Origin: Gracilariopsis chorda
Lineage: Eukaryota > Rhodophyta > Florideophyceae > Gracilariales > Gracilariaceae
Length of the DNA: 32,123 nucleotides
Reading direction: 5' to 3'
Assembly: GCA_003194525.1 (NCBI GenBank)
Contig: NBIV01000597.1
Span: 1-32,123 of the forward strand
A model generated the notes under the pieces. The model ran no database searches. It was not told the origin of the DNA and saw nothing but the letters and a program-made list of their open reading frames with translations. Below, in pieces: positions 1 to 30,086 of this stretch (position 1 is its first letter; the number at the start of each line of letters is the position of its first letter). A program made the position numbers and the translations under genes.

Positions 1-204
1 CACTCGTGTGTCGCTGCATTTTCCGCTTTCCCACTCCGTGGTCTGTCTTTGTCTCTACACCTGTACGCCAGTCGTGACGGTGAGTCCCGGTCTTACACCC
101 GGCTCCGTGTACTCACCACAGGTGGTTCTGTCGCTGCGCTACCCTGCTGAGGAGGACGTCGAACACCCTCGTGTGTCTGTCCCATCTTGGGGTATTGCAC
201 CACA
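1..204 (+). repeat. 5' LTR of E1, 3' part only
   Basis: The segment is identical to 10711-10914 by direct reading. It ends in GCACCACA, followed by the spacer AAC and then the primer-binding site. The upstream part of this LTR lies outside the window. Confidence 0.93.
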
Positions 205-220: not shown

Positions 221-489
221 TAGAAGACCAGCGAAGTGTGTTCTGTGATCTCGGTTTAACCGGATTAGCTACCTGGTTTCCGAATTATTCGTTGAAGTTG
301 AATTTGTGTTGTGACCAACCGTGTTGTTGAGGATCGCCGATTGCTCGGGTGTGTCTCCCACAAGTGGTTGCGTGGTACCTCTTTAGGAGTGGATGTTCGC
401 TCATTGGAGGTTTGCTTCTTTTTGTTGCTTGTTTTGTGTGTGTTGTTTGGATTGTTTCCTGTTTTGTTTCAGTTTCAGTGTCTGCCACA

Positions 490-2586
490 ATGGGTTCTGG
501 AAATGGATCCCGTGGTTCGGGCCAGCCCAAGTCGCGACAAGTCGGTGCTGACTTGCCCCGCGCTCGCGGTCGGTCCCAGAACGTTCGGATGTTGATAACC
601 GGAAATCCGGAAGCAGGAAGCTATCGACCAAGTCGTCGCAACCGCCAGTTGCTGGTTCATCGGATTGCCCCGCTTAGGAGATTCGTACCCGCCGCTGCAG
701 AGAAGGACGCACTCTTTGTCGAGTTGGAGGCTCAGGTGCAGAACCTTCAAGCCCAGCCTCGGTGCTTGAAAGCTCTCACGCCGCCCTCGTCAATGAGGTT
801 GATGCACTCCGTATGAGGATTGATGCCGATCTCGTCGGAGGTGTATCTGAAGATCTACGTACTTTACGGACTGATGTTAATTCCCTTTTGGAGGTTTTGA
901 GGGGTTACCCAGATATGGTGAAGGATGTTGACTCGAAGTTTCATCGGGTTCTGTCCCGTCTTGAGACGTTGGAAAATACCATCAGAGGTGATGACAATGT
1001 CGCAGACACACCAGCGGTGGTTTCTCATCGATATGGTGACCGTGCTCGCACGAAGAACCGCCCCCGAAAACGGAATGACAACGACTATGACTCGGATTCG
1101 TCCCGGTCATCGGTGAATTCCAACCGCTCTGCGGAATCCGCTTCGTCAGACTCGTCTGCTGACGGTGATCGTCGCGCTCGTTCATCGCACTTCGCGTCGT
1201 TCAGCAGCCACCCATGGTGAGATTCGAGCCCGACAGAAGGGAAGAAAGCACTCGGTTTGAAGGAACTGAAGCCTACTAACCCTTTGTACAGGAAGCTTTT
1301 ATCATATCGGTATTACCGTTTGGAAGATTCCTCTCTTTGGATCGTACACCCCGTGGAACTGGGAAGGTAAAAGACGGCATCAAGAGGATGGCTTTGTCGT
1401 TTCGTAACCAGAATTTCACTGGAGAGGATCCGATTCTCGTTCTGGATTTTCTTTCACGCTTTGTAGCGGAGGCAGATATCCTCGGAATGAGTGAAGGACA
1501 GGCTTACGTCGCCTTACCGTATTTCCTACGTGGAATCGCTGAAGATCAATTCAACTCTGTAAGAGGTTCGTCTCGCGCCTCTGAAGGAGGGGTCACCTGT
1601 TGGCCCGAAAGCCATTCAGTATTTACTCCGCTCGTACGCGACAGGAACCGCAATACAGGAAGCTATCCTGGCCCTACGCGATACTAAGCAACGCCCAAAG
1701 GAAACGGAGACCGAATACTCAGTCAGACTGAACAAGGCCTTCCACCGATGTGGCAATGTTTATTCCGCTAGCGAGCGTTGTTACAATGTTTATCGACGGA
1801 TTGGATCCGGCTATTCGCACCCTTGTTGCCCAACGTCGGGAAGACAGGAGGAAAGTTACCTACTTAGAATTGGTACAGTACGCGAAGGCGGAAGGAGATG
1901 CCCTACGTGCCCGCTCCGGAAGCCGAGTCAGATCTCAGGCCCTACACATGGAGGCCGCCCCGTCATCAGTTTCACTGTTGCCCCAGGAATACTCTCGACG
2001 TGAGGTTGAGAATGTTTACTTTACTCAGCATGATCTGGTTTCCATACCCACAACGGAGCTCCCGTCCACAACGGAACCTTCGGTGGAACTGGATAGTCAA
2101 GTGCTGTATGCAGATCGCCAACGCTTTCGCAGCCCACAAGTTCCGTATGCTAACGGTAATCGTTACCAGAGACCTGGTTGGGTGGATACGCGCGCGTCAG
2201 CGGTGAAGTTTCAGGACAACCGAAATATCGGGAGACATCAGACGTTGATCTGCTACCTTTGTTACGACCATGGACACACGGCCCCACAGTGTATCATGAC
2301 TCTGAGGGACATGCCCAAAGTGGTTGTTAACTTTGAAGCCCTGACCCCCGAAGAACAGGCATCAGTGCCTGTCACCGCATACTTGCGTGCGAAGACCGAG
2401 TTTCCTCGTAAGTTTACACCAGTTCAATCTGAAGCGGTACCCAGCACTGGTTCTTCCTTGGCCACCGCTTCTGCGAATCAAGCCGCTTCGGCGGATGTTT
2501 CTGTTTCTCGGCAACCGGCTCCGCAAACCGCTTCATTGCCGCGGAATACTGTTCCCGTGAAAAAGGATGCCGCTCAGGAAAACTGA
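490..2586 (+). pseudogene. gag: gag of E1 (nucleocapsid-like, frameshifted)
   Basis: Gag polyprotein, the structural protein that packages element RNA. I place the start at 490 (MGSGNGS), because homology to E2 begins soon after it. The reading runs through pieces 490-816, 762-1220, 1337-1687 and 1750-2586, which need at least four frame changes (near 760, 1230-1340, 1610 and 1780). Conserved blocks shared with E2 include GLKELKPTN, YRKLLSYRYYRLEDS, GEDPIL, ALPYFL, CWPE and LNKAFHRCGNV. A serine/aspartate-rich segment lies near 1090-1180. A CCHC knuckle (C-x2-C-x4-H-x4-C, LICYLCYDHGH) sits at 2250-2292 and would bind nucleic acid. The frame ends at TGA 2584-2586, directly after GGAAAAC, a candidate -1 slip site. 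The scattered indels mean this copy cannot make full-length Gag unless the indels are sequencing errors. Confidence 0.85.
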
Positions 2587-2718
2587 GTGGGGGAGTCTCT
2601 TTTAGAGAGGCGCCTGAGTCGAGGTCATCGGCGCCAGAGGCGTCAAAGCCTCGCTCCCCGGTCAAGATCCTTTCAAGGCAGTTGTTGACCACCACAGACG
2701 TGGACTCGGCCCACCTCG

Positions 2719-3546
2719 GTGAGTTATGTCGCCCGTGGATACGGTGTAAGAATCATCGGTCACCGGATAGAGTCATGGTTTATGGCCAAGCGAAACTACA
2801 AAGTTTTCGCTGACTTTGGCCTTTCCGCCCAGTATATGGTGCGTCATCTGTCTATTCTGGATACAGGTGCCGGCCCCAATTTCATTGTCGAATCTGTCTT
2901 ACCGCCTGAAGTGCGTTCTCGTGTTAGACAAGGACCCGTCATGGACGTTGCTGATGCCAATAACAACCCGTTGAAGACGGCTGGTACGGTTTCTCTGATG
3001 ATCAGGATTGGTAACTGTTCGATGCAGCTCGAATTCATCGTCTGTAAGACGCTAGCGGCCCCCGTTATCTTGGGATGTGACTTCTGCGATCGTTTCGTAG
3101 AGTCAATTCGTCCGCGTGCGCGAGAAGTTGAACTAGAAGATGGTTCCGACATTCCGATAGTTCGTCGTTCATTACGGCGTGCCTCATCCAAGTTGGTTCC
3201 TCTTCCGGCCCCCTTGCAGGATTCGTCACCTCCAAAGGAGTCGCCCAAGCTACGTGTCGCACGGCCAAACTCCATACCGCCCGAATCACAGGCGTGGGTA
3301 TCGGTTACTGCCGCTCCAAGAGGATTGCGTGTTGTTCAACCGCTCACCTCGCTGTACGAGAAGTATCAATTGGCCCTGGCTAACGGTGTCGTTCAGGTTT
3401 CAAATGAACACCCCTTTCAGGTCTTGATAGCCAACTTTGGCAAGAAGCCGCAGTATCTGGCGAAGAACCAAGTAGTTGGTACTGTACTTCCGCATCCAAC
3501 GGCTTTAATCCCTACAAGGTGTGCGCAGCCGATGTACTCGGATTAG
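2719..3546 (+). CDS. pro: Aspartic protease region of E1 pol
   Basis: Retropepsin-type aspartic protease that would process Gag-Pol. The active-site triad LDTGA is at residues 47-51 of this frame and the ILGCD motif at 117-121. About 150 further residues follow with no domain I recognise, although E2 has a recognisable counterpart (GTVL and QPMYSD-like ends). The ATG at 2719 is only the first Met of an open stretch. The natural product would be part of Gag-Pro-Pol, so the start is arbitrary. The frame overlaps the RT frame by at least 28 nt and ends at TAG 3544-3546. RT is in the -1 frame relative to it. Confidence 0.85.
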   Translation: MSYVARGYGVRIIGHRIESWFMAKRNYKVFADFGLSAQYMVRHLSILDTGAGPNFIVESVLPPEVRSRVRQGPVMDVADANNNPLKTAGTVSLMIRIGNCSMQLEFIVCKTLAAPVILGCDFCDRFVESIRPRAREVELEDGSDIPIVRRSLRRASSKLVPLPAPLQDSSPPKESPKLRVARPNSIPPESQAWVSVTAAPRGLRVVQPLTSLYEKYQLALANGVVQVSNEHPFQVLIANFGKKPQYLAKNQVVGTVLPHPTALIPTRCAQPMYSD

Positions 3547-4751
3547 TTCAAGAACCAGATGATACGCCTCATGCTAAGGAGGGGGAGGGTTCCCACTCTT
3601 CTGTGGAGTCGCTCAGCACGAAAGATTCGGAAAAGAAGGCCGTTCCTACGAGTTACGATAAGTTGGACCCTGTGAAGGAGTTAGAAGATCTGGATCTCGG
3701 ACATGTACCGGATTCACACCGCGAGAAGTTGCGAAAAATGTTGCGAGAGTTCACCTCAATGTGGGATGGATCCCTCGGGGAGGTGTCGGCCACGGAACAC
3801 CGGATTGACTTGTTACCGGACACCAGGCCGATTGCTCAACACCCCTATAGGGCAGGCCCCAAAGCAAGGGAGGAAGAACAGTTCCACGTGGATAAAATGC
3901 TCCGCGAAGGCGTGATAGAACCGGCTCAATCACCGTGGGCATCCCCAGTGGTACTGGCTCCGAAACCCGATGGGACTTGGCGTTTTTGCATCGACTACCG
4001 TCGCCTTAATGCCGCCACTGTGAAAGACGTGTACCCTATACCGCGAATGGACGAGTATATTGACTCTCTCGGTGAGGCGACTGTCTTCTCCACATTGGAT
4101 GCAAACTGGGGATACTGGCAAGTACCAGTAAGACCGGAAGACCGTGATAAGACCGCTTTCGTCTGTCATTCAGGTTTGTACCGCTTTAAGCGTATGCCAT
4201 TTGGGTTAACAAACGCTCCCGCTACTTTCCAGCGTGCGTTAGATATCCTCTTGGCCCGCTTCAAATGGCGATCGTGCCTCGTCTACCTTGACGATATCAT
4301 AGTCTTCTCCAACAACTTGGATGATCATTTAGAACACGTTCGTGAAATCATGACCACGTTACGTGATGCTGGAGTAACCCTCAAGCTGAGGAAGTGCGAA
4401 TTCTTTACCGAATCGGTTAAGTACCTGGGCCACGTTATTCGCCCTGGGCGCTTGCTGATACAGGAAGCTCGGGTCAAATCTCTCAAAGAGGCCAAGCACC
4501 CGAGAACTCAAACATAACTCCGCTCCTTTCTAGGGTTATGTAACGTGTATAGACGGTTCATCCCAAGCTTCGCAAAGATTGCGGGACCCCTTAATGATCT
4601 TCTCCGAAAAGGACAACCGCCAAAACTGGGCCCCCTTAACCCTGCACAGGTGGAAGCTTTCAACTCTCTGAAGGAGGCTGTCACCTCTGCACCGATATTA
4701 TCGTTGCCTAAGGACGGGTTTACCTTATACCGTGGATACAGATGCGAGTGA
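3519..4751 (+). pseudogene. RT: Reverse transcriptase of E1, one in-frame stop
   Basis: RNA-dependent DNA polymerase that copies element RNA to cDNA. In the 3519-4517 frame the fingers and palm are clear: WASPVVLAPKPDG (140-152), FCIDYRRLN (156-164), STLDANWGYWQ (191-201, first catalytic Asp), MPFGLTNAPATFQ (226-238) and YLDD (256-259, the two catalytic Asp). The frame stops at TAA 4515-4517, where E2 has a Glu codon in the TQTELRPFLG block. It continues in the same frame through 4751 (YRRFIPSFAKIAGPLNDLL, connection to RNase H). A short deletion near 4725 then moves into the frame of the 4732-7908 ORF. Polymerase residues are intact, so the lesions are the stop and the frameshift. Confidence 0.92.
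3574..3589 (+). promoter_or_regulatory. Internal polypurine tract 1 of E1
   Basis: CTAAGGAGGGGGAGGG, an all-purine run after CT, shares TAAGGAGGGGGAG with the tract at the 3' LTR (10121-10134) and with 6689-6706. Here it is read as Ala-Lys-Glu-Gly-Glu at the start of the RT frame. E2 has the same tract at the same gene position. By analogy with central polypurine tracts it could prime plus-strand DNA synthesis. Confidence 0.65.
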
Positions 4752-7700
4752 TTACCAAATTGGTTGTGCGTTATTCCAAACGACTCCCGATGGGGAACGG
4801 AAACCAATCGGTTTTTGGTCCAGAACACTCAACGTCCACGAACGGAACTACTCAGTCCCTGAAAAGGAATGCCTCGCCATGGTATGGGCTCTGCAAACAC
4901 TCAGACCATATCTGATGGGCACACGCTTCACCGTTAATACGGACCACTCCGCTTTGCGTTGGTTAATGTCCGTCACGGAACCATCGGGCCGCTTGATGCG
5001 TTGGAGACTGCGCCTCATTGAGTTCGATTATGAAGTCGCCTATAAAAAGGGTTCCCTTAATACACAGGCTGATGCTTTGTCTCGTTTGGGAACGGAAGCG
5101 GAAACCCTTTCCGTCGATGACGATGATATCCCTTGTTTCCTTCTTGAAGAGAAGTTACGTTATGATCTGGTTTCAGATGATATTGCTGATGATCTGCTCG
5201 TCGCTGACGGTGACGAACCGGATACCGGATCCTTCGCACCGATCACTCCCGAAGAGATGATCCGCGAACAGTATGGAGACCCGTTTTGTACGAAGATACG
5301 CGCCCAACTCAATGGAGGTGCTAACATTCCTTTCGGAGTCGACTCACAAGGTTACTTGGTAAGGACTGTGTGTTCTTCGTCACAAATAGTGGTTCCCCAT
5401 TCCCCCCAGTCGAGAGTATTACATCTCTCGCACTTTTCGAAGTTAGCTGCACACCATGGTGGAAGGAGGCTATACACGACGTTACGTCGGCATTTCTACT
5501 GGCCCGCACTTGCGTTGGATTGCTACGCGATTGTTCGGTCTTGTACCCATTGTGCTCGTGAGCAAGTCAAGCTACGCCGCTATGCGAAGAAATTGACCCT
5601 GTTCCCGGCACGGGCTCCGCTAGAATTTGTCGCCATCGATATACTCGGTGAGTTCCTTCACACTGCACGTGGTAACAAGTTTCTACTCGTAATAACGGAC
5701 AGGTTCTCGAAGCTCGTCCGGACTGTACCGTTGAAGAAGATTACCGCACGATCCGTGGCAGAAGCATTTGTCCGTCACTGGGTTCTCGTCTACGGTCCAC
5801 CGGTTAATCTCTTATCCGATAACGGACCGCAGTTCGCCGCGCGTTTCTTCCAAGATGTTTGTAGAATACTTGACATCAGAAATCTGTTTACAACGACATA
5901 CCATCCCCAAGCAAATGGGCAGGTGGAACGGTTTAACCGAACGTTGTTGTCCGCTTTACGTGCGTATCCAGTTGAGCACCCCCGTACATGGGATTTGTAC
6001 ACAGACACCGTGACGTACGCGTACAATACGCAGGTACACAGAGTAACTGGCTTATCACCCTTCGAGCTGGTGCTCTCACGTCCCCCACCGCCTGTGGCGA
6101 TTGAGTCGCAGCCAACGCAGGACAAGTACCCGTCAACGGTTGATCATTACATTCGATGGAAGAGTTGGCTCACACGGATGGTCCCGGTCGCGAAATCGTC
6201 AATGACGCGAGCGCAACGAGCGTATCAACGAAATTTCGATGCCCGAGTCCGTCGGCCCCTTCCCTCACTGGAAGCAGGACAGTTCGTCTTCGTCAGGAAG
6301 GAATACTACAACCCTGAGAAGGAGAAACGCCACAAAATCTCGCCCATTGCGGATGGCCCCTACAAGGTCATTTCAGTGAGCCGAGACACAGTTGTACTGG
6401 AAGTTGGCGATTCTCATGAACGTTTCAGCCGCGATCGCGTCGTACAAGCCCCTAACCCGCATTCGGAAGTTGTACTGGCTCCCGGAATCCTGGACGCTCG
6501 ACTGATGCCCACTGCAGAAGCACGTTCCTCGCACCGCGCAATTAGCGTTGCGCGCCCATCGAGAGGTCTCTCGGACATACCGATTCTGTCGCAGCAATGT
6601 TCGGAATCTCCGGTACACGTTCGCTCGCGCTTTACGCCGCGTGTCGAACCACCGTCAGACGTTGTTTCAGCCCCCGTCGCCGCCCCGGCTAAGGAGGGGG
6701 AGGAGGCCAGTCAATCCCGCTTTTCAGCGAAGTCTACACCGCCGTTGCGAGCTCCTGTAAACTCTCGTGAGGCACGGCAACCTGAAGTAGGGACACCGCA
6801 CGCTACCGCCGCACGCGTGGAACTACCTCAGCAGACTGGAAGGACCGGCCCCGCCGATGGAAAGCCTCGTGAGCACGCTACGCAGTCACCCCCGTTAAGG
6901 GAGCACACTGCCAACCGCACTCGCGAGACGCTGCAAAGAAAACCGGACACAGACACTGTGCTGTCATCTCCCGTAGGAGGAATGAACACAGGAAGCCTGG
7001 CTCGGAACCCGGACGCTCCGTTGGCCCCCTACTCACCGGCTCCCGTCGAGAAAGTTGTAAGGACCCCCGCCGCTGCAGCGCAGACTAAGCAAGTCACGGC
7101 AGATCCCGGTGTATGGAACCCTGATGTACAGGACGCTTCGACACCCTCGCAAGTTGATGCGCAAGGTCCCACAAATGGGTTATCTGAAATTGAATCGTCT
7201 CTCATTAGAGGAAGTCTCTCTGGTACTGTACCAAGCAGCTCAGATCATCTGAATTCAGCTCACAGTATTGAAAGACTGGTTGCGTCAACCCCAGCAGGGA
7301 TGGCCCACACCGCATATGCAGGAGAGCTTGATCGCCACGTGTTGCGAGATGTGCACCACACACCCATTCACGGTGACACAGCTCTGCAGTACAGGACGAC
7401 GACAGCCAACCATTTGGATACGCCTCGCCAACCGGCACCCGCCGTGGCACATGAACCGCCTCCCCGTCACCAACCGTTAGAAATGGGACGAGGAAGCCTT
7501 CGCAGACTAGCGGTACGATCTCCCGAATCCGATGGGGTAGCGTCAACCTCAACGAGGAATTCAGTCGACCCTCATCAGGAAATCACATGGTCAACGCCGC
7601 AAGCGAACGCCACGAACCGTTGGACGGACTCATCACCGGCTTTGCCGTCGGAAACAGCCGTTGTACGGACTGCAACCGGAACCGCGAAGCGTGACGTTTA

Positions 7701-7908
7701 CTCGAAGGAGTTCATTATCGACCGTATCCTCGGGCACAGTTACAACCCAGAGGGATATATTCAGTACCAGGTGCGCTGGTATGGGTACCCGCCGTCCCAT
7801 AACACGGACGAACCGGTAGAGAACTTGCCCCGATCGAAAATCGTGCAGTATCACCACCGTACCAGAACGGGAATACCAGGCACGATTGACCGAGCGCTCG
7901 TTGGATAA
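4732..7908 (+). CDS. IN: RNase H - integrase - linker - chromodomain of E1 pol
   Basis: An uninterrupted 1058-codon frame, the downstream half of pol. RNase H spans residues 1-120 (TDAS with D4, E46 in KECLA, D71 in TDH). The integrase zinc domain is at about 231-274 (H234, H242, C271-x2-C274). The catalytic core has D303 (AIDILG), D363 (LLSDNG) and E399 (QVERFN), with 35 residues between the last two. GPY is at 542-544. About 400 residues of Pro/Ser/Thr/Arg-rich, apparently disordered sequence (about 590-985) follow. The chromodomain (about 992-1045, EFIIDRILGHS...VRWYGYPP) ends the protein and would direct integration to modified histones. The usual Trp of the TWEP stretch is absent (NTDEP). 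The ATG is fortuitous, since translation should come from upstream pol. Confidence 0.95.
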   Translation: MDTDASDYQIGCALFQTTPDGERKPIGFWSRTLNVHERNYSVPEKECLAMVWALQTLRPYLMGTRFTVNTDHSALRWLMSVTEPSGRLMRWRLRLIEFDYEVAYKKGSLNTQADALSRLGTEAETLSVDDDDIPCFLLEEKLRYDLVSDDIADDLLVADGDEPDTGSFAPITPEEMIREQYGDPFCTKIRAQLNGGANIPFGVDSQGYLVRTVCSSSQIVVPHSPQSRVLHLSHFSKLAAHHGGRRLYTTLRRHFYWPALALDCYAIVRSCTHCAREQVKLRRYAKKLTLFPARAPLEFVAIDILGEFLHTARGNKFLLVITDRFSKLVRTVPLKKITARSVAEAFVRHWVLVYGPPVNLLSDNGPQFAARFFQDVCRILDIRNLFTTTYHPQANGQVERFNRTLLSALRAYPVEHPRTWDLYTDTVTYAYNTQVHRVTGLSPFELVLSRPPPPVAIESQPTQDKYPSTVDHYIRWKSWLTRMVPVAKSSMTRAQRAYQRNFDARVRRPLPSLEAGQFVFVRKEYYNPEKEKRHKISPIADGPYKVISVSRDTVVLEVGDSHERFSRDRVVQAPNPHSEVVLAPGILDARLMPTAEARSSHRAISVARPSRGLSDIPILSQQCSESPVHVRSRFTPRVEPPSDVVSAPVAAPAKEGEEASQSRFSAKSTPPLRAPVNSREARQPEVGTPHATAARVELPQQTGRTGPADGKPREHATQSPPLREHTANRTRETLQRKPDTDTVLSSPVGGMNTGSLARNPDAPLAPYSPAPVEKVVRTPAAAAQTKQVTADPGVWNPDVQDASTPSQVDAQGPTNGLSEIESSLIRGSLSGTVPSSSDHLNSAHSIERLVASTPAGMAHTAYAGELDRHVLRDVHHTPIHGDTALQYRTTTANHLDTPRQPAPAVAHEPPPRHQPLEMGRGSLRRLAVRSPESDGVASTSTRNSVDPHQEITWSTPQANATNRWTDSSPALPSETAVVRTATGTAKRDVYSKEFIIDRILGHSYNPEGYIQYQVRWYGYPPSHNTDEPVENLPRSKIVQYHHRTRTGIPGTIDRALVG
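6689..6706 (+). promoter_or_regulatory. Internal polypurine tract 2 of E1
   Basis: CTAAGGAGGGGGAGGAGG lies in the region encoding the linker between integrase and chromodomain, read as Ala-Lys-Glu-Gly-Glu-Glu. It shares the 13-base core TAAGGAGGGGGAG with 3574-3589 and with the 3' tract. E2 has the same tract at 23811-23829 (minus strand). The role as a plus-strand primer is inferred. Confidence 0.65.
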
Positions 7909-8201
7909 TCCACTGACTTGGTCAGGTGAGCCGTGAGCCCGGTTTTCCGGTGTGAAGATGGATGCCTTGAGAATGCGAGAAGATGGAAACCTCATGGAAG
8001 AGAAGATGAAGCTGGCTCATGAAGAGAAGAAGAAGACCCTGGATAGGAAGAAGCAAGGAAGAAAAAGAAGAAAAAGACACAAGCCCCACGAGGGAAGTTA
8101 AGCGTTTATTCGTTAACACGTAATTGCCCTCGCCTACCACTACCACGACCCCAACTATCAGGGATGGTGGACGCCAACCGTGGGAACATCACTTCGCTCC
8201 C
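7909..8201. other. Spacer between convergent pol and aORF in E1, purine-rich
   Basis: The 293 bp separate the pol stop from the aORF stop on the other strand. From about 7966 to 8095 the plus strand is almost all A and G, with many GAAGAA repeats. On the aORF strand this is a long pyrimidine tract containing CTATCCAG, which looks like a 3' splice acceptor. E2 has an analogous pyrimidine tract after its aORF, at about 22676-22711. Confidence 0.6.
8105..8110 (-). promoter_or_regulatory. Candidate poly(A) signal for aORF1
   Basis: AATAAA on the minus strand lies about 92 bases downstream of the aORF stop and before the pol stop is reached on the other strand. That position suits 3' end formation of an antisense transcript. 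A single hexamer is weak evidence. Confidence 0.4.
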
Positions 8202-10178
8202 TCAAGAGGATGGACCACCACTCTGATGAGGATGGCCTGGCTGCGCCTGCAGCGCTAGCATGGCCGCCCGCATTTGCGCGATGTCACCGGAAGCTCCCGA
8301 GGTATCCATTCCTAGTTCGCCAAGGAATTGGGCAATGATGGCCGCACGGTCCTGACCGGTCACACTCTCCGATGGCGTGCCACTTCCAACCGGAGCGGTA
8401 TGGAAGGGACCACCACCGACGTGAGGAATGTTCCAAGACGGAACCTGACTCGGCCCAGCCGGAAGAGCCACGGATGGACCCGGAGTAGAGTACGCCGGCA
8501 CCCTGAAGCCCTCAGCTGAGGGAAGGCCACCGCCACCGTTTGCGTCCACCCCAGTCGCGGGAGGATCATTGTCCATCATTGGATCGGCCTCCTCATAGGG
8601 TTGGAAGTATCCGTCAGTGACGATGTAGCCCGTCGGATGACCCGGTGGAACAACTCGCTCGCGATCGCGGAGTGCCAATGCCTCCGGCTCGGAGATGAAG
8701 CGACGCTCTACGGGATCGTAGTAGACGTAATCACCCGCCAACGGAGTTCGGCGCCCCGGAGACCGGTCGGCTGGATTGGTACCTTGATGACAGCGACTCC
8801 ATTGGATGGGCACACTGTTCCAGTCAACCTGGTCCATCGCGTCCAACAGGGAGATAGCCTCATTATAGTTGCCGGCACCGCCGAGGACGAGGGAGAGATC
8901 CAATGAACGGATGCCACTACGCACTCGCGGAGGGAGATACCACAGTCTGAACTGGTCGTAAACCTCGAAGACGAGATACGCCGCTGCGCGGGCCACCCAC
9001 TCAGTGAGGACAACGGACCACCACCCGGAGAACGGATTGCTGCATAGTCGGCTACCGATGTAGGTGATGCATGGCGGAAGCTCGATGTAGCAACCCCTGC
9101 AAGCCTCGTGGGCAGCCCACATCCTCGGTAGGGGAACGTAACGGCCTCGCATGTACTGCGGTCGGATGCGCTCAGCTTCAACGTTCTGATACGGTATCAT
9201 GTACCCGAAACGGGATCGGGAACGACGTTCAAAACGGATCATCTGGAGGAAGTTAGACCGCGGATTATGGCGAAGATAACGGAACTCAGCACGAAGTATC
9301 GGCCTTTCCCAACACAGGTAGTTCTGGTGAACAGATGCCGCTGGACCCCGCTCTGGGATGGACGGAGCCAACGCTGCTAAGCAGTCCCCATACCCCATTT
9401 CACCCTGGGTGCGGTAGAAGGCAATATCAAACTGATATTCTTCTGGGACCGGGAATTCCGATGGAGTCCGATACAACCGCTGATACGCGAGCTGAATCAT
9501 CGCGATACGCGCTTGCGCCCCACTCTCACCACGACGGTGGACCAAGACGTGCGTCGGCACGGCGACCCGGTTACGCCAGTCGAAGCTGAGAGTCATCCAT
9601 ACGTGGAGATCGCCCGGAAGGAGTCCGCTACCATCAGCATACTGCTCGATGAGATCTTCATTTTGCACCAACGTTGGGTGGAACCAAGGCGCACCGCTGT
9701 AGCGAGAAGGCTGCTCGGCCGGATCAACGGATACCAGCTCGTCGTACGACGGTAGTGCGCTCGCCGCAGGCGACGGAACCGACATACTCGGAGTGGCAGG
9801 TGTACCGCCCGAGGCGTTGCTTGGATGACCCGCAGAGGACAGAAGCGGTGCAGTCGGAAAACCGGAAAAGAAACCCGATGGCGGAAGATTGTTCCCGCCA
9901 TGCGGATCGTTGTTGCTGGGATTCATCGCTGAAGGCGCGGAAGGTAAAGCAGATCGTCGCGGGATAGGCGGAGAGTTGCTGACGTCGAGTTGTTCTCGGT
10001 GGATATCCACTTGAGTGAAGACAAAACCCGAGCCGGATACGGTACCATCACTTGACGCAGACATACTTACGCACAACGCGCTGTCGCGGCGAACGCTCAC
10101 CGAATGTGGTTCTTGCTCCTTAAGGAGGGGGAGATGAAGGGCAACGCTCCTAGCGGTATCAGCACGTCGTGCGCTCAT
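8202..10178 (-). CDS. Antisense ORF (aORF1) of retrotransposon E1, unknown function
   Basis: 658 intact codons on the strand opposite gag-pol. I do not recognise the family. Residues 1-150 are Pro/Ser/Gly-rich. About 155-515 looks folded and rich in aromatics (SFDWRNRVAVPTH, FDIAFYRTQGEMGYGD, RPILRAEFRYL, YLVFEVYDQFRLW, DQVDWNSVP, YVYYDP). The tail is Gly/Pro-rich and ends with a helix-like stretch (IIAQFLGELGMD). There is no signal peptide and no convincing membrane span, so it is not an obvious envelope protein. The ATG lies about 44 bp inside the 3' LTR, so the ORF crosses the LTR edge and polypurine tract. E2 carries a collinear homologue with nearly the same length and start offset, which supports this start and shows the ORF is a lineage feature. 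It may be driven by antisense promoter activity of the LTR. Confidence 0.85.
   Translation of the reverse strand: MSARRADTARSVALHLPLLKEQEPHSVSVRRDSALCVSMSASSDGTVSGSGFVFTQVDIHREQLDVSNSPPIPRRSALPSAPSAMNPSNNDPHGGNNLPPSGFFSGFPTAPLLSSAGHPSNASGGTPATPSMSVPSPAASALPSYDELVSVDPAEQPSRYSGAPWFHPTLVQNEDLIEQYADGSGLLPGDLHVWMTLSFDWRNRVAVPTHVLVHRRGESGAQARIAMIQLAYQRLYRTPSEFPVPEEYQFDIAFYRTQGEMGYGDCLAALAPSIPERGPAASVHQNYLCWERPILRAEFRYLRHNPRSNFLQMIRFERRSRSRFGYMIPYQNVEAERIRPQYMRGRYVPLPRMWAAHEACRGCYIELPPCITYIGSRLCSNPFSGWWSVVLTEWVARAAAYLVFEVYDQFRLWYLPPRVRSGIRSLDLSLVLGGAGNYNEAISLLDAMDQVDWNSVPIQWSRCHQGTNPADRSPGRRTPLAGDYVYYDPVERRFISEPEALALRDRERVVPPGHPTGYIVTDGYFQPYEEADPMMDNDPPATGVDANGGGGLPSAEGFRVPAYSTPGPSVALPAGPSQVPSWNIPHVGGGPFHTAPVGSGTPSESVTGQDRAAIIAQFLGELGMDTSGASGDIAQMRAAMLALQAQPGHPHQSGGPSS
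10121..10134 (+). promoter_or_regulatory. 3' polypurine tract of E1
   Basis: TAAGGAGGGGGAGA sits immediately before TGAAGGGC, the proposed LTR start. In E2 a similar tract abuts an LTR edge that is fixed by LTR comparison. It would prime plus-strand DNA. On the other strand it encodes the Leu-Pro-Leu-Leu part of aORF1. Confidence 0.7.
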
Positions 10179-10914
10179 ATCCCGCTCTGGCGATGCTCAC
10201 CACTTTGCCGTGAAGTATGAGTGTTACACCGGTAATCTGTTTCCGTTGGAAGGGCCCCAATTTGGTTGACAAGTGTAGTGCACAGCATTGCTGGCTTGTG
10301 CCACACGTGTGTAGTGTTTTGCACCCCCGTAGGGACATTATTAGTTATTATTAGTTAATTACTACTGTACTGTCAGGGCGCGGACCACCACTACTTATGT
10401 GTGTGAGCTCCGGCTGCCCGGGTCAAAGTAAACGCAACAAGCGAGTGTCTGGCTCTAACTCAGGTTCCCTGGTGAGTTTCCACCTCCGTCTGGAGAGACG
10501 CCATCCTGTGAAGGCCTAGTTACCCACCTCGTGGAGCTCAGCACATTCTTACCACCATTGTGTTTGTTTTTGTGCACGCTTTTACAGCGATTGTTATTCT
10601 TTGCCCCGTATACAGGTGTTGCCTCACTAGCAACTACCGGTGATTACCGTTGCTGTTTTCGCCACCGCCCCACTCGTGTGGACACCGTGCCGCTCTTGCG
10701 CGTCGCCCACCACTCGTGTGTCGCTGCATTTTCCGCTTTCCCACTCCGTGGTCTGTCTTTGTCTCTACACCTGTACGCCAGTCGTGACGGTGAGTCCCGG
10801 TCTTACACCCGGCTCCGTGTACTCACCACAGGTGGTTCTGTCGCTGCGCTACCCTGCTGAGGAGGACGTCGAACACCCTCGTGTGTCTGTCCCATCTTGG
10901 GGTATTGCACCACA
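10135..10914 (+). repeat. 3' LTR of E1
   Basis: The right edge is fixed by identity of 10711-10914 with 1-204, ending CACCACA. The left edge is inferred: TG directly follows the polypurine tract, giving about 780 bp, close to the 841 bp of the E2 LTR. An alternative start at 10274 (TGTAGTGC, nearly complementary to the GCACCACA end) would leave no purine tract next to it. The decamer CACTCGTGTG occurs twice, at about 10671 and 10711. The 5' codons of aORF1 lie in this LTR on the minus strand. Confidence 0.8.
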
Positions 10915-10949
10915 AAAAATGCACCTGTCCAATCAACTTTGATTTATGT

Positions 10950-12469
10950 CTGTGTGTGGGAAAGCTGTACGAGGTTGAGTCCTCTGAATGGTTGTATGCA
11001 AATGCATCAGTGGAAAGTGGTTGGCCCAGTTGGATATTTTATCTCACCGCGTCACGTTCTCCCAAACATGAGTGCATTAGATTTCTTCCTTTGGATGTTT
11101 CCTTTGCAGCATTTGCAGTTCATTGTGAACAGAACAAATGTTTGGTTAGAAAACAAAGACGTTCGGAGAACTTCAGGGAGGTAATTGCTCAAATTCTTTG
11201 GAATTCTTATACTCATGACTCGCATTGAGTTCGCTAGTAGACGGGATCTTTGGAGCCTAGAGCCTTTTTCTAAGTTTATTCCTGAGCCAAATATTGGTCT
11301 TGCGATGTCACGGAACAGATTCGAAATGCTTAGAAGTTGAATATGCTTCATCTGAAATGGTGTGACTGAAGAGCAGGGAATCGCGCGTTGGTGTTTCGTA
11401 GAAGATTTTGTGAAGGCAATCAATGACCATCGTCGGCCTTTTTCACGCCATCACATGCCTTATGTGTTGACGAAGGAATGTCACGATGGTACGGATTAGG
11501 CGGTAATTGTATTGATGTCGGGCTTCCACACTATACGGCATTAGATAGAAAGCCGGAAAATGGTCTTGAAATGAAGGCCGTATGTTGTGCACGAAGTGGC
11601 ATAATGCTGAACATTGAGCTCAGTATGGGTGCACATACTCCGGAACAAGTTTTTGATTCTGATAGCGCCCATGAAATGGCAGTCCTACGTCGCTTATTGC
11701 AACCATGGTTTGAATCAGAAAGGTTGATATGTGCGGATTCCATTTTTTTGCGTCTGTCAGTACCGCAAAAGCATTACTGGAGAAAGGTTTAAGGTTTACT
11801 GGAGTGGTCAAAAGTGCTACTCGTGAGTATCCTATGACACATCTCTCCGAAACTACTCTATCGGACAGGGGAGATTTTGTATCTATGCTATCGAAAGGAA
11901 GCATTATCAATAATCATATAATGGCTGTAATGTAGATGGATAGAGAAAAAAGGTATTTGGTATCAACCTCTGGCACGGTTAATCCTTGCTCTCCAATTAT
12001 TCGAGAAAGGTGGAGACGGGAGGGAAATATTTCTTAGAGAGTGGAATTGGAGGTCGCAATTCCCGAAGTGTGTGAAGAGTATTACAAAAACTGTTCAATT
12101 GTTGATCGCCATAACAGATGCAGACATAATGATCTGAATCTGGAGAAGAACATTGAAGTGAAAGAGTGGTCATTTCGAGTAAACTGCTCTCTTTTATCGA
12201 TTTGTATTGTGGACGCGTGGAAGTTGTACAAAGCGGCAAATGGAACCAGAAACTTGAAAAGTCTGCACCACTCTCATTGCCAATTGGCTGATGAACTAAT
12301 TGAGAATACATGGGATACCACAGTTCTAATGAGTAGAGATGAGCAAGAATGTGAAAATGTTCATGAGAAGCCAATGTTTGCAGGCATTGTCTTGCATTTA
12401 GTGCAGACGAATAGAAGGACAAAAAACAATGATGGCAAGATTACAAAAGCTTTATATCAAGGACGATGA
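10950..12469 (+). pseudogene. piggyBac-type (DDE_Tnp_1_7) transposase relic
   Basis: The region matches the piggyBac transposase family in pieces spread over three frames. N-terminal blocks are LDFFLWMFPLQHLQFIV and ASRRDLWSLEPFSKF. The catalytic core has D1 in CVDEG (11469-11471) followed by MSRWYGLGG and DRKPENG, D2 in ICADS (11736-11738) and D3 in IVDRHNR (12104-12106). FFASVSTAKALL and GLRFTGVVKSATREYPM follow D2. So all three catalytic Asp survive. Breaks include a frameshift before CVDEG, one in the T-run at about 11741-11748 and stops near 11338 and 11932. It starts only about 40 bp after the E1 3' LTR, so E1 may have inserted into it. I found no terminal repeats or TTAA ends. It encodes no working product. 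Confidence 0.85.
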
Positions 12470-14069
12470 AATTTCTGCAATTGTAATACAAAGCCAAATT
12501 TTTATGTTCTGGGTGCTATATCAGAAAGGAAAAAGAAGTGTTTTTATGTCACACTGGTACTAATATAGATTGTTATATGAAACAAATTGAAGAGTGTCGC
12601 GGTATAATGAAGTTCAAAAGCTGACAAAGATATCCACAACCTTGTCAACATTCGTTTTCTATAGTAAAAATGTATGTTGGAATGTAAAAGTTTACAATAA
12701 GTTCATTTTACTTTTAGCCACCTACTAATTCAATCCGCTTTATTTACAATTGCTAGATTATTTAAATTCTATCACGAAACTGCCCCTTGAACAGATCTCA
12801 CCGTACTCTTTTTCCTGTTCAAGTGGGGGTTATAAACGTTCTGAGAGTCTAAAGATATTTAGAATAATTCGAGCTCCCGAAGGAGTTTTGGAGTTTTATA
12901 AAACCCAGTGAGGTTCGAACTCATGTGTTGTTGCTCGCATGTGACCTGACGGACACTGAGCTGCTGTTATGGCTCAGTGGTCGTCTTCTACAAGTACTTA
13001 GAGTTGAAAGACCACCCGGTTGGCCATGTTTCAAGTTCAAATTTTGAAATGTGGGGCCATGCGGATCAGGTTTCAATTTATTTTATAATTTTGTGTGCCG
13101 TTGCACTGACCCCATAAGAGGTCAGCGCACCGGTCCGATAGACACTATACTTGCTCTCTTACGTGCACCTCTGGCGACGGGAGCTACGTGTCGAAAATAA
13201 TAAACTGTCTACCTACCAAGGAGCCCAGCCGGGCGTGCACCCCTTCTGCGCACAACCGTACACGTGACTAACTTGGGAGCGCTTACTACACTACTACTAA
13301 CTCTTCTATGCATACCCAACAAGGGCGCTCTCCATTGCACTACAGGGATACTCAGTTCTAAAAGCCCATTTGGCTGACCACAAGAGTCTCAATGATATAG
13401 TTATGTGCAAAGCCAGATAGCCAAAACTCTGAACACAAGAGAGCCCGTGAAGCGATCTAACGAATAACAGTTTTGATCAAATTGCTCAATCCTACGCAGC
13501 TGTGAAAAATGCACGAAAACGACAAGTTCTTCTAACAGCCCTTTTGTGTGAAAGAAGTTTGCGGTTGGGTTATTACTGCATTGACGGATCACGCTCGAAC
13601 CGCCAAGGCGCCCAGAAGAACATGCCTTCCGTCAGCCGCAGTCTGCCGTCCTTCTGTCAAGGGAAGGTGACACAGATCAACCCCTGAGACTGCTTCCTGG
13701 AGCTCACATTTCGAATCAGAGGTTTGCTTTGGAGACCAACACAGCCCTGTTAATCACGCCCCTACCGCACACAATACACATCAAGAGCATCATACAAAAC
13801 TTTTGCTATGGGCTATTCTGTGTCAAACACAATATGAACTATCCCGTGTCCCTTGAAAGTGAAAGCCAGCAGAGCGCTCGCCTCCTTGATGCGTGCAGGT
13901 CCCTCCCAAGTCATACAATCTTAATCATAAGGACATTGGCATAGATCAGGGCTAAAACAGTTACTTGAACTGCAAAAATAAGGATGTGCACATCTCTATA
14001 CTCGCTGCTTACTGTCATTGCTCTGTGCACTTGAAGAGCGAAGGCGGGCATGTCTTTGAAATTTTTCCG
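12470..14069. other. Unassigned stretch with a tRNA-like patch
   Basis: 1.6 kb with no coding region I can support. Short open frames here lack homology that I recognise. It holds a stem with 9-bp arms CTTGAACAG/CTGTTCAAG (12786-12794 and 12815-12823), the tRNA-like patch listed separately at 12900-13055, and a segment at about 13094-13344 with LTR-like ends that I do not trust. Confidence 0.5.
12900..13055. repeat. Possible tRNA-derived (SINE-like) relic
   Basis: The minus strand has an A-box-like AGCTCAGTGTCC and, 43 bases after its start, a B-box-like GAGTTCGAACC (about 12911-12921). The plus strand has TGGCTCAGTGGTC at about 12970 and AAGTTCAAATT at about 13032. The two A-box halves form an inverted repeat (CACTGAGC 12954-12961, GCTCAGTG 12972-12979). 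No acceptor stem closes, so these are not functional tRNA genes. Confidence 0.3.
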
Positions 14070-15330
14070 CTATACTTCTGCAAATCCCGAAAGCACGTTA
14101 TCCTGTGCTGTACCTAAGACCTCTCGAAAATTATTGCTGAACTCGTCGACGGCATACAGCACCCATTTCAATACTTTTCTGATGATCACGGACCAATTCC
14201 AACACAGCGCGTCCAAATTCCTCTACGGAGCCCTTGCACAACAATCCAGACTACAGATAATCCACCGTCTCCAGCCGACTTCCAGAGTGCGCTGCGATAA
14301 TTGGAACTCCAGCTTCCATAGCATCCAAGGGCACAATTCCAAAATGTTCATTGGCAGGTTTGTAAAGAACAACAAGAGCTTCGCCAAGCGAGGAACGCCA
14401 ATGCTCATCTGAGATGTTCTTTAGCATTGTCACGCGGTATTGCAGTTTGTGAAGATTGACAAAATCTCTAATCTCTTCAAATTAGTTGACAGTTTTGGCA
14501 AGCCTGGTGTCATGCCCGCCAGCTATGATGAGTCTAACGTCAGCATCATGTTGTGCTCGTAGGTACGCCAATGTTTCAACTGCAAGTAGTACATTCTTCT
14601 TTCTTTCATACCAATTAAAAGAAAACAGGAGATTGGAGGGATTGCGGCCTGTTACGGCGTTCGGCAAAGATACGCATAGATAGATGAGACGGGGCTCCCT
14701 TAAGTTTGGGAATGTGCTTGAAAAGGCGTTAGAAGTGAAACGTGAATTTCATGCCACACGATCGAAGTGAGAAGCCCTCTACGGCATCAACGACAGTTGG
14801 GTATATCCGCTGTTTCAGGACTGTTTTGAATGTGGAGAGAGGCTTCGTGGCAGCAGCATATCTGGATAGTGGCAATAAAACAATGATCTGGATCGAAAAA
14901 AGGCAAGAAAAAGAATTGGGAAGGATAGGATATCTACCACGGCAACATCAAAGCGGCTGAACAGGCATGCGTATTAAGCAAGAATAGTGCATCGAAGCCG
15001 AGCCAGAGCGGCCTATGCACGAACAACAAAGTGTTTGGGAAAACAGTGGTTACCGAGCCGGCGAAGAGACGGGGATATGCGGCTCCAGGTTTGAAGAGGC
15101 GTACCTAGAAGCGTCCGAGCAGTGAGTGCGGTTGCGGGTGGAGAGATGCATTCTAATTGGACTCGCGGCGAAGGATGGGCGACATCAGCGAAACAGCGAG
15201 AGGGGTCGACATATTGGGTGAGAATGGTTGTCTGATGGTCCTTGTCTTGGAGAGAAGTAGCAACATCGATGATGAAGCGCTCCGCACCTCCAATGCCGAG
15301 ATCAGAGAGGATGAAGATGATGACTTGCAT
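14070..15330 (-). pseudogene. ALG2: ALG2-like alpha-mannosyltransferase, broken copy
   Basis: ALG2 adds two mannoses from GDP-mannose to the dolichol-linked oligosaccharide on the cytosolic ER face (GT4 family). The N-terminus SDLGIGGAERFIIDVA is 9 residues after the ATG at 15328-15330. FYCHYPDMLL, FSFNWYERKKN, LIIAGGHD, the donor-binding ANEHFGIVPLDAMEAGVP and the C-terminal helix ending at TAG 14070-14072 follow in the right order. The span fits a complete intronless gene of about 400 codons. It is broken by several frameshifts (near 15060, 14870, 14290 and 14140) and stops (for example after LAKTVN and VDYL). Because ALG2 is normally essential, an intact copy should exist elsewhere. Confidence 0.88.
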
Positions 15331-16601
15331 GGCGGAGAGGCCTGCTGCAGAAACATGCAAAGCGGTGCGTGAGAGGACGTGGCTAGTTGGGTGATCAGAA
15401 GTGGATTGAAAATTTGCTGTACGAAAATTGATTGTTGTACCCTGGACGCCCCCCGTATGGTATCTAACTTGAGGGTATACTCCAAATGGTGAGACAAATT
15501 CACATGGTGCGCCAAGAAGTTGGGCCAGTGCTCGATGTGCAAGAGAAAGCGAGCTACTTTATAAGCGGTGTACAATCATTTACGAGAATGTGGCTATCCT
15601 AAAGGTTAGGTTATTTCTCCACATGCTGTTTAATCGATTAGTGAGAGGTCCTTGGTAGTCTCACCGCCATAAAAAGACTACCGCCTGGGATTCGTAGCAA
15701 TCCGAAAAGCACTTCATGACCAAAATCACGTGCAGAATCGGCTCACTGGATTCTCATAAATCATACAAACGGTACTTCCAAAACAAGTTAACTTACACAA
15801 AGAACAACAAGCGACTCAACGGTATGCATGGTCCACCCCAACATAGATCTTCCTGGGTTCATGTCTCTGTATGACGGGGATGCGAAGCGCAAGCACGTCG
15901 TCTTGATACTCGCTGACAGCTATGTTGGGAATACCAGCATCATGTCCCACCCTGAGCTTCAGGTCGTAGTTGACCATTTCGCGTCTCTCTTCCCCCGTTC
16001 TGACGAAAGACTTTTCAAAGCGCTTGGCAATTCTACCACACTTTCTGTCATCAGAAACTGGAATGCCTGTGTCTCGACTACTGAAACTGGGAGACCAAGA
16101 CAATGAAATTTTTCTTCATGTTCGCTGGAAGAACTCGGAAAAGGAGAAGACAGTTTTGAACCTCTCGCGAAAAGCGACGACGATGTTGCCACCATGGTCC
16201 AGAAGCTACTACGCCGCAAAAGCACTCCTCTCGATGTCGCAGGAAAGGGTCGACCTGAATTAGGTTTTTGAAGGAGGTTGGTGTAGCAGATTCATCACAA
16301 TTGGCTATTCTCGAATAGCGCAACTCACCGCTTTAGAAGGAAAATCATTTCAGCTTAGGCCATTCAACAGAAGCTCATGGCCACGCAATTGACCTCGCTG
16401 AACACGTAACGAGATGATGATTTTGTTTTAGTTCGCAGAGAGGGTTTGTTTGCACTTTGGGAAACATCACGGTGGTAGAAAGCCCGCTCATGCATTTACC
16501 ATCAGTGAAATTTGAAGTCATCAAACTCCTCAGCTTTCTACCATCCTTGCGTTCACACAACCAACCTGCGCAAATCCAGGAAAGAACCCTGCAAAGTCTT
16601 G
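15331..16601. other. Unassigned stretch upstream of ALG2 relic
   Basis: I see no supported gene here. Open frames of 80-140 codons occur on both strands (for example 15816-16103 minus and 15970-16263 plus), but they overlap each other and show no motif I recognise. Decayed coding sequence cannot be excluded. Confidence 0.4.
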
Positions 16602-17234
16602 TTAACCGCTTTTGCTGAGTTCAGATGCTGCGGCTGCACTGGTTAGCGGGGGGGCCTGGGACGAAGTGGTAACGGCTGTGGCCCGGCGAGCGGTGTTCAA
16701 CGCGTCTAAAAACGTGGTGGTTTGGACGTTCCGGGATTCCCAGGGTTGATCTGAAGTCCTTGAAAAAGCTTGTTCCGCTTGGTGGAACCATAACAGGACA
16801 GATATGCGAGAGTCAAACCAAACATTGAATATATCCTTCACCGTGAGACCGGCTGCGCGTAACCGCAGGCTCCGTATCAGAGAATTTTCTTGCATTGGCA
16901 ATAAACCAATATGACGGAAAACTAACGGACGTTCCTTGAAAAAAAGGAAAAGGAAACCAATCCTCCAAGGAATGAAACCGAAAAGTACGGGTTCTAGATC
17001 AGGAGACAATTTCATAGTGCAATGTGCAAGAACGGGGAAACCCAAGAAGACCTTCGGGATCTTCCTCCATTTACGCACCTCAGCATAAGAGCCCTTCCAG
17101 AGATGGCACGGCAGAGTAGGGTGTAAGTCTGAGGTCATCGTTTTGCTTTCTCTGGGCGAAGTTGGGTTTAAGAAAGCATTACTTGCGGGGGCTGTATGTA
17201 ACTCTCTCTCAAAGGTATAGATTTTACAAGGCAA
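16602..17234 (-). CDS. Hypothetical 210-codon ORF
   Basis: I do not recognise it. It is the longest open frame in the unassigned stretch. It has a charged N-terminal half, one hydrophobic segment at about residues 82-99 (VLFGFIPWRIGFLFLFF) that could span a membrane, basic residues after it and an Ala/Ser/Thr-rich tail. No neighbouring gene supports it, and no start signal distinguishes the first ATG. It could be a fragment of a larger decayed gene or a chance frame. Confidence 0.25.
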   Translation of the reverse strand: MPCKIYTFERELHTAPASNAFLNPTSPRESKTMTSDLHPTLPCHLWKGSYAEVRKWRKIPKVFLGFPVLAHCTMKLSPDLEPVLFGFIPWRIGFLFLFFKERPLVFRHIGLLPMQENSLIRSLRLRAAGLTVKDIFNVWFDSRISVLLWFHQAEQAFSRTSDQPWESRNVQTTTFLDALNTARRATAVTTSSQAPPLTSAAAASELSKSG

Positions 17235-18257
17235 GGCACATGCGAGCGGAGACGATCAAGATCCATGAGTAGCAGAAAGACACGCTAGTACGAAGATTGG
17301 ACGAGTTTTAAAGGTGGAAGAGTCACAAAAAGTAACGGGGAAAAACGGTGATGCTGGACGCAACCCTTATGCAAGGGCACCAATACAATGCTTGGGGGAA
17401 AACCATCTGTTACAAACAGAGGTGCAATTGTTGAAAATGTTTGGAAGTCGATGGTGATGATCCGACTTGACGTTTGGAGCAGCCATCGGTGTTTATATAG
17501 ACGGTTTAGCCTAGTTCTATCATTGTCATTATTGAATGAGAAATCGTCCGGGTGTAACGGAATTATGCGTGGTATTCTCGTTGGCTTCCATGTGTGGGTG
17601 TTTTACCGAGTTCAATGCCAGATTTAGCCGCTCGATGACTTGGCGAATTCCCCAGCTGATGACTTATTCTATGAATTGCTAAGGATCAGTAACAGACAGG
17701 GTCGTTGATGATCCGGCATGACCCCGAGGTGCTCATGATTAACTCGCACGAATCTCTGGGGAACCTTCTATGACCGTGTGATCATTGCTGTACCGTGTGA
17801 GGTGTTTTTCAACGTTGTAAGTAGTAGGTGACGTGTATTTCGGAGCCAACTTTCGTTATGTGGTCGGGCAGGGACTTTCTGACATAAGCATGTTGTCGTG
17901 TCATATTGACAGTATGTCACAAAAGATTTCAACTCGGCTTTGAGGCCAGGTAGACATGTCAAATAGGTAACCGCTCTCTTTAAGAAATAGAGTAAGATAC
18001 AAGTAGGAGAAAAGACACTTTAAAACTCATGTTGGAGCCAATTACATTCAAAAACGGTAAAATAGTAACTAAATCTAGCACCATCTCAATGATTGGTCTT
18101 ATTAGTTATCCGAGGGCGTTACATAATTTTGTGCAACAAAGTGTTTTCCTTGGGACGTGAACAACTCGAAAAGGCTAAAATTGGAGATATCTAAAAACAC
18201 GAACGCATAGCATGTGCATCTACATATCGCCCATAGATCAATCAAAATAGGGCTTTT
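17235..18257. other. Unassigned stretch
   Basis: About 1 kb with only short open frames and no recognisable motif. If the downstream SANT-like gene and the Harbinger transposase belong to one transposon, its left end may lie near here, but I did not find a terminal inverted repeat. Confidence 0.4.
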
Positions 18258-19630: not shown

Positions 19631-19707
19631 ATTACCAAGGGAGACCATATCGAGCGTAGGGCTACGTATTTTATCATGGATAAAGTTAAGAGATTTCACA
19701 CATTTCT

Positions 19708-19822
19708 TCAACTTAAAAACATGTTAGCTTCCCGACTTAGATTGGGCATGTAAAAGTTTAGGATCTGGTTAAGACCAAGGAGACAGGTGGTTATATTTAA
19801 CAGTCTTACACCTATATGTAGA
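19708..19822 (-). pseudogene. PIF/Harbinger transposase, C-terminal fragment
   Basis: The minus strand reads LLNITTCLLGLNQILNFYMPNL then a stop at 19708-19710, which fits the C-terminus of DDE_Tnp_4 transposases. The frame continues directly from the fragment at 30896-32123 once E2 and one GTAGA copy are discounted. E2 therefore interrupted this gene. Confidence 0.72.
19818..19822. repeat. Target-site duplication of E2, left copy
   Basis: GTAGA occurs immediately before TGTGGTGC at the E2 edge and again at 30896-30900 immediately after the other LTR. Five bases is the usual Ty3/gypsy duplication length. Confidence 0.85.
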
Positions 19823-20663
19823 TGTGGTGCCAAACCGTGAGCTAACGGAAGAAACCCACTACCGCGGACGGGACACCTCAAGGTGTTCAGCCTTGCTCCC
19901 CTGTATGGGGTAACTCAGCCGTAGAGCCCTCCGAGTAGTGGGCGCGTGCCGGGCGTAACTCTGGGCGACTACGTCCTGCCTTACAGACGGAGGTGTGTAG
20001 GATGGCTTAGAACCGGGGATCTGGATGCACCCGGCCATGGCTATCTTCGGGGACCAGAATGGGCGTACAACGACGAGCCGCACTGCGGAGCACTGTCTTG
20101 TGACAACGATAAATGATCCCGAGACTTCAGGGCAAACCTGGATACAGGGCGGAGTAAAATGAGCCGTAACACGGGTAAGTAGACCAAATAAAGAAACAAG
20201 TAAAGAAACAATTACCATTACTAACGGGTGGTCACTCCTCGGTGAGACGAGGGGGATAACTACACTGGAAGCCTTGAAGGGACCCTCCAAGAGTGGAGTT
20301 GTACCCGTAAATCGACGGTGAAGTTAGAGCCAAGTCGTCGTTGGAGTTTTACTTTTGGGCAGGAGCGGCGGCCGCCGCTCCCTTAAATACCATAGCTGAA
20401 AACATTCAGTAAAATACACTAAGTATTCCGGCACAGCCGGGCAGCACACCCACGTGTGCTACTTGGCCCGTGGACACGGAGCACACCACTAGTCGGGCGC
20501 ATCACGTCCCACGTATACTATTATTACCTTCTATACAGAGGTACCCCCTAATGGGGCCGTCAGGTGACGCATACTCATATACACCCTATCCATCCGGGGA
20601 TACCGGCATCCCGTTATGAGAAACGGTTTGATCTCTTCGTTCCTGAGGGCACATCGCACCACA
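19823..20663 (-). repeat. 3' LTR of E2
   Basis: 841 bp matching 30087-30895. The ends TGTGGTGC and GCACCACA are perfect 8-bp inverted repeats. On the element strand a TATA-like TATTTAAG (complement of about 20382-20389) is followed at once by a 20-bp GC palindrome (20362-20381). Compared with the other LTR it has about 27 extra bases near 20392-20420. The start codon of aORF2 (20616) lies inside it. Confidence 0.92.
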
Positions 20664-30085: not shown

Positions 30086-30086
30086 G

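Follow-up and report, generated by a model that had tools for sequence, protein, structure and literature searches.

The window analysed here is the whole of contig NBIV01000597.1 (C592) of the red alga Gracilariopsis chorda, 32,123 bp in length, and belongs to the 91.3 Mb assembly of 1081 contigs that was searched. The window contains two Ty3/gypsy elements, E1 and E2, and the question raised by this locus is whether a long open frame located between pol and the 3′ LTR of E1, on the strand opposite gag-pol, is a gene of the element and what role its product would have.

Organization of E1 and its antisense frame

Element E1 carries LTRs, a gag region and a pol region in which reverse transcriptase is followed by RNase H and integrase, as in Ty3/gypsy elements, and the chromodomain at the C-terminus of pol is the hallmark of chromoviruses. 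The following features were identified in E1:

1–204 (+), terminal part of the 5′ LTR, truncated where the contig begins
about 208, presumed primer-binding site, following the end of the 5′ LTR
349–7908 (+), broken gag-pol ORFs
1750–2586 (+), part of gag, in which a CCHC zinc knuckle was recognized by eye; no Pfam match
3519–4517 (+), reverse transcriptase piece
4732–7908 (+), RNase H, integrase and chromodomain (Pfam PF17917, PF17921, PF00665, PF00385)
8202–10178 (−), antisense ORF of 658 codons ending in TGA, with its listed start ATG at 10176–10178 within the 3′ LTR
10122–10133 (+), polypurine tract AAGGAGGGGGAG, before the 3′ LTR and within the antisense frame
10135–10914 (+), 3′ LTR, TG...CA, 780 bp, the presumed site of the antisense promoter

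The intact 658-codon frame opposite gag-pol that the original prediction described was borne out at these coordinates. Pol and the antisense gene converge, their stop codons being 293 bp apart, and the antisense gene has the placement of an aORF-3R, between pol and the 3′ LTR and with its coding strand opposite that of gag-pol. The bounds of the LTR are marked by LTR-only genome matches, most of which begin at query base 435–436 of window 9700–11100; since the 3′ LTR spans 10135–10914, the listed antisense ORF begins 44 bp inside the LTR and runs on through the polypurine tract. Tracts resembling this polypurine tract are also present in families G2, E3, G4 and G5, described below. The gag-pol region of E1 is broken into six listed ORFs of at least 150 aa, and the sibling copies C83 and C339 contain 1824-codon frames. 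The chromodomain match (PF00385, E-value 4.9e-9) covers residues 994–1042 of the 1058 residues encoded by the E1 pol ORF. A long linker separates this domain from the integrase domain, and the tail of the protein diverges much faster than its RNase H-integrase portion. The region between E1 and E2 (11000–19800) has a lower GC content (38–50%) and three listed ORFs of 151–220 aa, none of which gave a Pfam match above the cut-off.

Homologues in E2 and across the genome

The decayed, collinear homologue that had been proposed for E2 was recovered, with three blocks of the E1 protein matched in order, in three frames and with in-frame stops. The features of E2 that bear on it are as follows:

20702–22556 (+), decayed antisense homologue in E2, the pol of which is on the minus strand; bounds from a DNA alignment with E3
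about 19827–20663 (−), 3′ LTR of E2
about 30086–30895 (−), 5′ LTR of E2

Residues 163–273 of the E1 protein match window 21141–21476 (+) with 43% identity, residues 276–421 match 21482–21919 (+) with 31% identity and residues 426–495 match 21931–22134 (+) with 39% identity. The E2 stretch exhibits 71% DNA identity with family E3 over the whole of 20702–22556. The span first assigned to this homologue, 20616–22593, was right as to its presence and wrong as to its start, because position 20616 is inside the E2 LTR; E2 was entered in the merged locus list as 20663–22593. Self-comparison of the window gave no match between the LTRs of E1 and E2, in agreement with their description as apparently unrelated, and both LTRs begin with TG after a similar purine tract.

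The antisense gene is found at no fewer than 169 distinct loci in the G. chorda genome, fragments included. This count merges the matches to four queries, namely E1 (at least 67), the E2 stretch (at least 40, LTR-only rows included), G4 (at least 71) and P0123 (at least 71), the last being a distant relative from outside the genome, with duplicate rows and the LTR-only rows of the E2 query left out. At least six chromodomain Ty3/gypsy families carry the gene: E1 (with subfamilies E1-A and E1-B), G2, E2, E3, G4 and G5. Identity over the protein core is 92% between E1-A and E1-B, and E1, G2, E3, G4 and G5 are 40–62% identical to one another. Matches that agree with P0123 better than E1 does suggest that further families are present in the genome. 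Many copies are open: among the matches listed, 39 of the 44 rows assigned to G5 are free of stops (the assignment was made by judgement and three of the sequences were retrieved), and a single open frame of at least 600 aa is present at 13 of the 23 distinct places examined for G2.

The place and orientation of the antisense gene next to pol recur across families. When an antisense row within 3 kb downstream of a chromodomain row was taken as its partner, at least 78 of the 150 chromodomain rows were paired, at distances of 108–1286 bp (197–411 bp in 69 of the 78), and the antisense gene was on the opposite strand in all 78 pairs. The remaining 72 of the 150 rows are without an antisense row among the matches listed, and some chromodomain families may lack the gene. 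The absence of the frame from other family members, an outcome that was to count against it, may apply to some of these unpaired rows among the matches listed; on the other side stand the at least 169 loci, many of them open, at which the gene occurs. At the fetched loci with a pol match the antisense gene is opposite pol in 43 of 44, L030 and L033 being one place. The sole exception is L069, a decayed locus in which the antisense gene and a pol-like stretch share the same orientation.

Outside the genome, a search of 5.8 billion proteins with the E1 protein alone returned no relative, and a profile built from seven cores returned six (P0121–P0126), of which P0126 is from Agarophyton chilense. 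This relative, together with seven matches to the phycobilisome linker family above its cut-off, on seven contigs of the assembly, points to a red-algal host, probably of the Gracilariaceae; an oomycete host was considered and rejected, and a search for elicitins, in which the controls gave no match either, returned none. P0125 is 63% identical to E1-A, P0121 is 56% identical to G5 and P0126 is 48% identical to G2. The closest reverse transcriptase to that of E1 is P0001, with 83% identity, and P0121 and P0001 are both on contigs of 21,947 bp. If these represent one contig, the linkage of the antisense gene to pol would hold in another data set as well. The distribution bears on the proposal that a host gene was recently captured by one element, in whose favour it can be said that transduction is discussed for other additional ORFs in the accessible part of PMC11963269. 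However, the families that carry the gene number at least six, with core identities of 40–62% among five of them, and the outside relatives adjoin particular families (P0125 with E1-A, P0121 with G5 and P0126 with G2); recent capture is thus quite improbable, and any capture must have been old.

Constraint on the antisense frame

All samples used to estimate dN/dS consisted of open copies only, with 21 sequences in the first run and, in later runs, 7 family representatives, 7 E1-A copies and 12 G2 copies, the thirteenth open one, L051, being excluded. Rather than the value near 1 that would have spoken against a gene, omega was 0.19 between families (7 representatives of five families, 522 codons), with a log-likelihood of −10035.7, as against −10346.2 when omega was set to 1 and kappa to 2. 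Between E1-A and E1-B, omega over the whole frame was 0.21 (95% interval 0.15–0.28), and constraint was strongest in one segment:

8559–9758 (−), conserved core, residues 141–540, omega 0.08 (0.05–0.12), with 18/9/85 differences at first, second and third codon positions

At the two ends of the protein, omega between these subfamilies was 1.00 (0.36–3.58) for residues 1–38, which include the LTR-encoded part and exhibit no detectable constraint, and 0.80 (0.39–1.76) for residues 541–658, which are not clearly constrained. Within the latter, residues 601–658 (8205–8378, −) differ by 13 nonsynonymous changes and 1 synonymous change, against the trend of the core.

Among young E1-A copies (n = 7) omega was 1.18, which is indistinguishable from 1 (log-likelihoods −3377.2 and −3378.3), and among G2 copies (n = 12) it was 0.67 (−4392.5 and −4411.6). 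The antisense frame is a real protein-coding gene with its core under purifying selection, and the pattern is one of selection in active lineages and neutrality after a copy lands. The original prediction also pointed out that the E1 antisense gene stayed open while gag and reverse transcriptase broke. This is true of the E1 copy, but it is not evidence of selection, since omega is near 1 among the young E1-A copies.

That the openness of the frame is a shadow of a sense gene or of base composition is refuted as a full explanation and retains next to no probability. The GC content over E1 is 50–59%, which reduces the number of stops, and stop-to-stop sense frames of 100–199 aa overlap the antisense gene in 12 of the 12 loci examined, both as this explanation would have it. 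However, the third codon positions of the antisense frame take most of the changes in the core and omega between families is low, as given above, and the longest open frame in 7909–10914 is 664 codons, compared to a maximum of 302 and a mean of 170 in 500 dinucleotide shuffles. The other five frames over the E1 antisense gene contain 11–30 stops each. Similarity that only mirrors a coding frame on the sense strand was looked for and not found, as sense frames match between families in short stretches only (37–107 aa at 31–42% identity, and one stretch of 31 residues at 71–77%); they look like shadows. A conserved sense ORF over the 3′ end of the antisense gene was considered and rejected, as it recurs within families and not in its entirety from one family to another.

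Predicted expression, product and comparison with known systems

Several features near the two ends of the antisense gene are candidates for the signals of its expression:

10062–10064 (−), Met39, possible start codon
9924–9926 (−), Met85
8105–8110 (−), AATAAA, downstream of the antisense stop and before the pyrimidine tract
8055–8077 (−), pyrimidine tract on the antisense strand, a purine tract on the plus strand, starting 125 nt past the antisense stop

Translation is tentatively placed at Met39, which follows the unconstrained residues 1–38 and aligns, to within a few columns, with the first Met in E3 and G4; the first Met of G2 is further upstream, and the codon is ATA in L006, L007 and L017. 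An aligned Met is present at the position of Met85 in E1, G2 and G4 and absent in E3. An IPR-like motif just before Met85 is common to E1, G2 and the A. chilense protein, and the translation start is therefore probably upstream of Met85. A programmed frameshift near residue 105 was considered for L013 and L017 and rejected, because a base is lost in one and gained in the other within the same T run, pointing to decay or sequencing error. The E1 LTR, read on its antisense strand, contains none of the motifs TATAAA, TATATA, TATTTA and TATAA, and TAATTA once.

Past the antisense stop, a pyrimidine run of 18–33 nt is present in all six representatives (E1-A, E1-B, G2, E3, G4 and G5), and these runs were matched by 0 to 6 of 2000 shuffles that preserve base content only. 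An AATAAA follows the stop in E1 and G2 and is absent from E3 and G4; G5 is readable for 135–157 nt only. From its sequence and position, the pyrimidine tract would suit either a poly(A) element of the antisense transcript or a second, central polypurine tract of the sense strand. On the sense strand, a second purine-rich tract extends over 8021–8077, between pol and the antisense gene, and has counterparts in all six representatives.

No family had been recognized for the antisense protein from its sequence, and this still holds, as searches of Pfam, NCBIfam, PHROG and the PDB gave no relative. A Pfam-A scan of 12 family members at E ≤ 5 returned only four other families (best E-value 0.052), with no match to Transposase_28 (PF04195, accession as given in the accessible part of PMC11963269) and no bZIP match in the antisense protein or the family members scanned. 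Predicted structural models were weak, with a mean pLDDT of 44.5 for the 658 residues (7 rows) and 59.7 for the 401-residue core (10 rows). Neither model gave a significant match to solved structures, and the first gave none to viral structures. At most, the models point to a core of mixed alpha/beta structure flanked by disordered tails; the core is rich in aromatic and arginine residues and the tails are of low complexity.

The location between pol and the 3′ LTR is where an envelope-like gene would be expected, and the antisense gene might be one in inverted orientation. This is disfavoured and very improbable, as the gene is on the strand opposite pol in 78 of 78 paired rows, no membrane-spanning stretch was found in five representatives (best 19-residue hydropathy 1.2–1.6) and no signal-peptide-like start was seen by eye; the sense orientation and membrane-spanning segment of an Env-like gene are thus both lacking.

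The best explanation, to which a probability of about 0.6 is assigned as a whole, is that E1 and E2 are members of a large, old chromodomain Ty3/gypsy lineage of red algae, probably of the Gracilariaceae, and that the antisense gene encodes an accessory protein that is expressed from the side of the 3′ LTR and regulates the element in trans. The convergent gene, which these elements carry in addition to gag-pol, fills the space between pol and the 3′ LTR; in the proposed mechanism, its transcript would start on the 3′ LTR side, be translated from about Met39 and end past the stop near the pyrimidine tract, where AATAAA may be used in E1 and G2. The product would be soluble and about 620 residues long, with tails of low complexity around a core of about 400 residues that is strongly conserved, and would serve the cycle of its own element in trans as an accessory factor. 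Its likeliest role is regulatory, as a putative nuclear regulator of sense expression or silencing of the kind proposed for plant antisense ORFs; as there is no homologue of known function and no fold match, this role is drawn from analogy with the plant ORFs.

Two other roles for the accessory protein are conceivable, each of them unlikely. It could be a structural or particle component, such as a second capsid or nucleocapsid-like factor supplied in trans, and its large size, low-complexity tails, aromatic- and arginine-rich conserved core and lack of a recognized DNA-binding domain would fit such a component. A part of gag with a zinc knuckle (by eye) is, however, already present on the E1 sense strand, and fold searches of the PDB and of viral structures, made with poor models, gave no capsid-like match. 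It could instead be an anti-silencing factor that counters host silencing, which would explain survival despite an antisense transcript. Complementarity between the gene and the sense RNA means that double-stranded RNA would be expected if both RNAs were made, and families with many similar copies keep it open; the want of any Pfam match in the protein weighs against this doubtful alternative.

The resemblance drawn in the original prediction to the antisense genes of plant Tat-type elements and deltaretroviruses is a fair one, and the kind of gene is therefore already known. Antisense additional ORFs between pol and the 3′ LTR are described in the accessible part of PMC7264820 for flowering plants and for Boty of Botrytis cinerea, a non-plant element. 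The plant examples include gene23 of maize Grande, rice RIRE2, Silene Retand and the TRP28 ORFs, whereas the host here is a red alga. Grande gene23 is reported as nuclear, with transcription driven by an upstream promoter of its own (PMC7264820, accessible part). The TRP28 ORFs are reported in 97% of Retand clusters, and Retand is placed in a non-chromovirus lineage (PMC11963269, accessible part), while the red-algal elements carry a chromodomain. Moreover, the Retand/TRP28 ORFs encode Transposase_28 and the red-algal protein has no Pfam match, and, unlike the plant ORFs, the open frame of E1 runs through the polypurine tract. E1 resembles chromoviruses in its RNase H, integrase and C-terminal chromodomain, but the latter (residues 994–1042 of 1058) is far behind the integrase core.

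HBZ of HTLV is a small protein with a bZIP domain. It too is encoded antisense in a retroelement, starting on the side of the 3′ LTR, whereas the red-algal gene has about 600 codons in one open frame, is without a Pfam match and hence without a bZIP, and is spread over several element families. The HTLV antisense promoter is reported to be inside the 3′ LTR (PMC7264820, accessible part). Among the open-access papers listed, no antisense gene appeared for red algae or for chromodomain elements, chromoviruses included. The differences from the known cases are in the host group, in the element type and in the protein itself, which adds a family for which none of the databases searched gave a match with known function; the kind of antisense ORF is itself known.

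The role of the antisense genes of LTR retrotransposons is treated as an open question in the accessible parts of PMC7264820 and PMC11963269. The red-algal lineage is a strong test system for it, with dozens of open copies, at least six families, a core omega of 0.08 between subfamilies and relatives outside the genome, and it allows one to ask which part of the element cycle needs an antisense protein. At even odds, this chromodomain lineage is ambisense, with an antisense gene unrelated to those of plants that was already a regular part of its elements before the gracilariacean genera diverged and has stayed so. If so, antisense accessory genes would have had separate origins in plants, deltaretroviruses and red algae, and would represent a recurrent solution among LTR elements.
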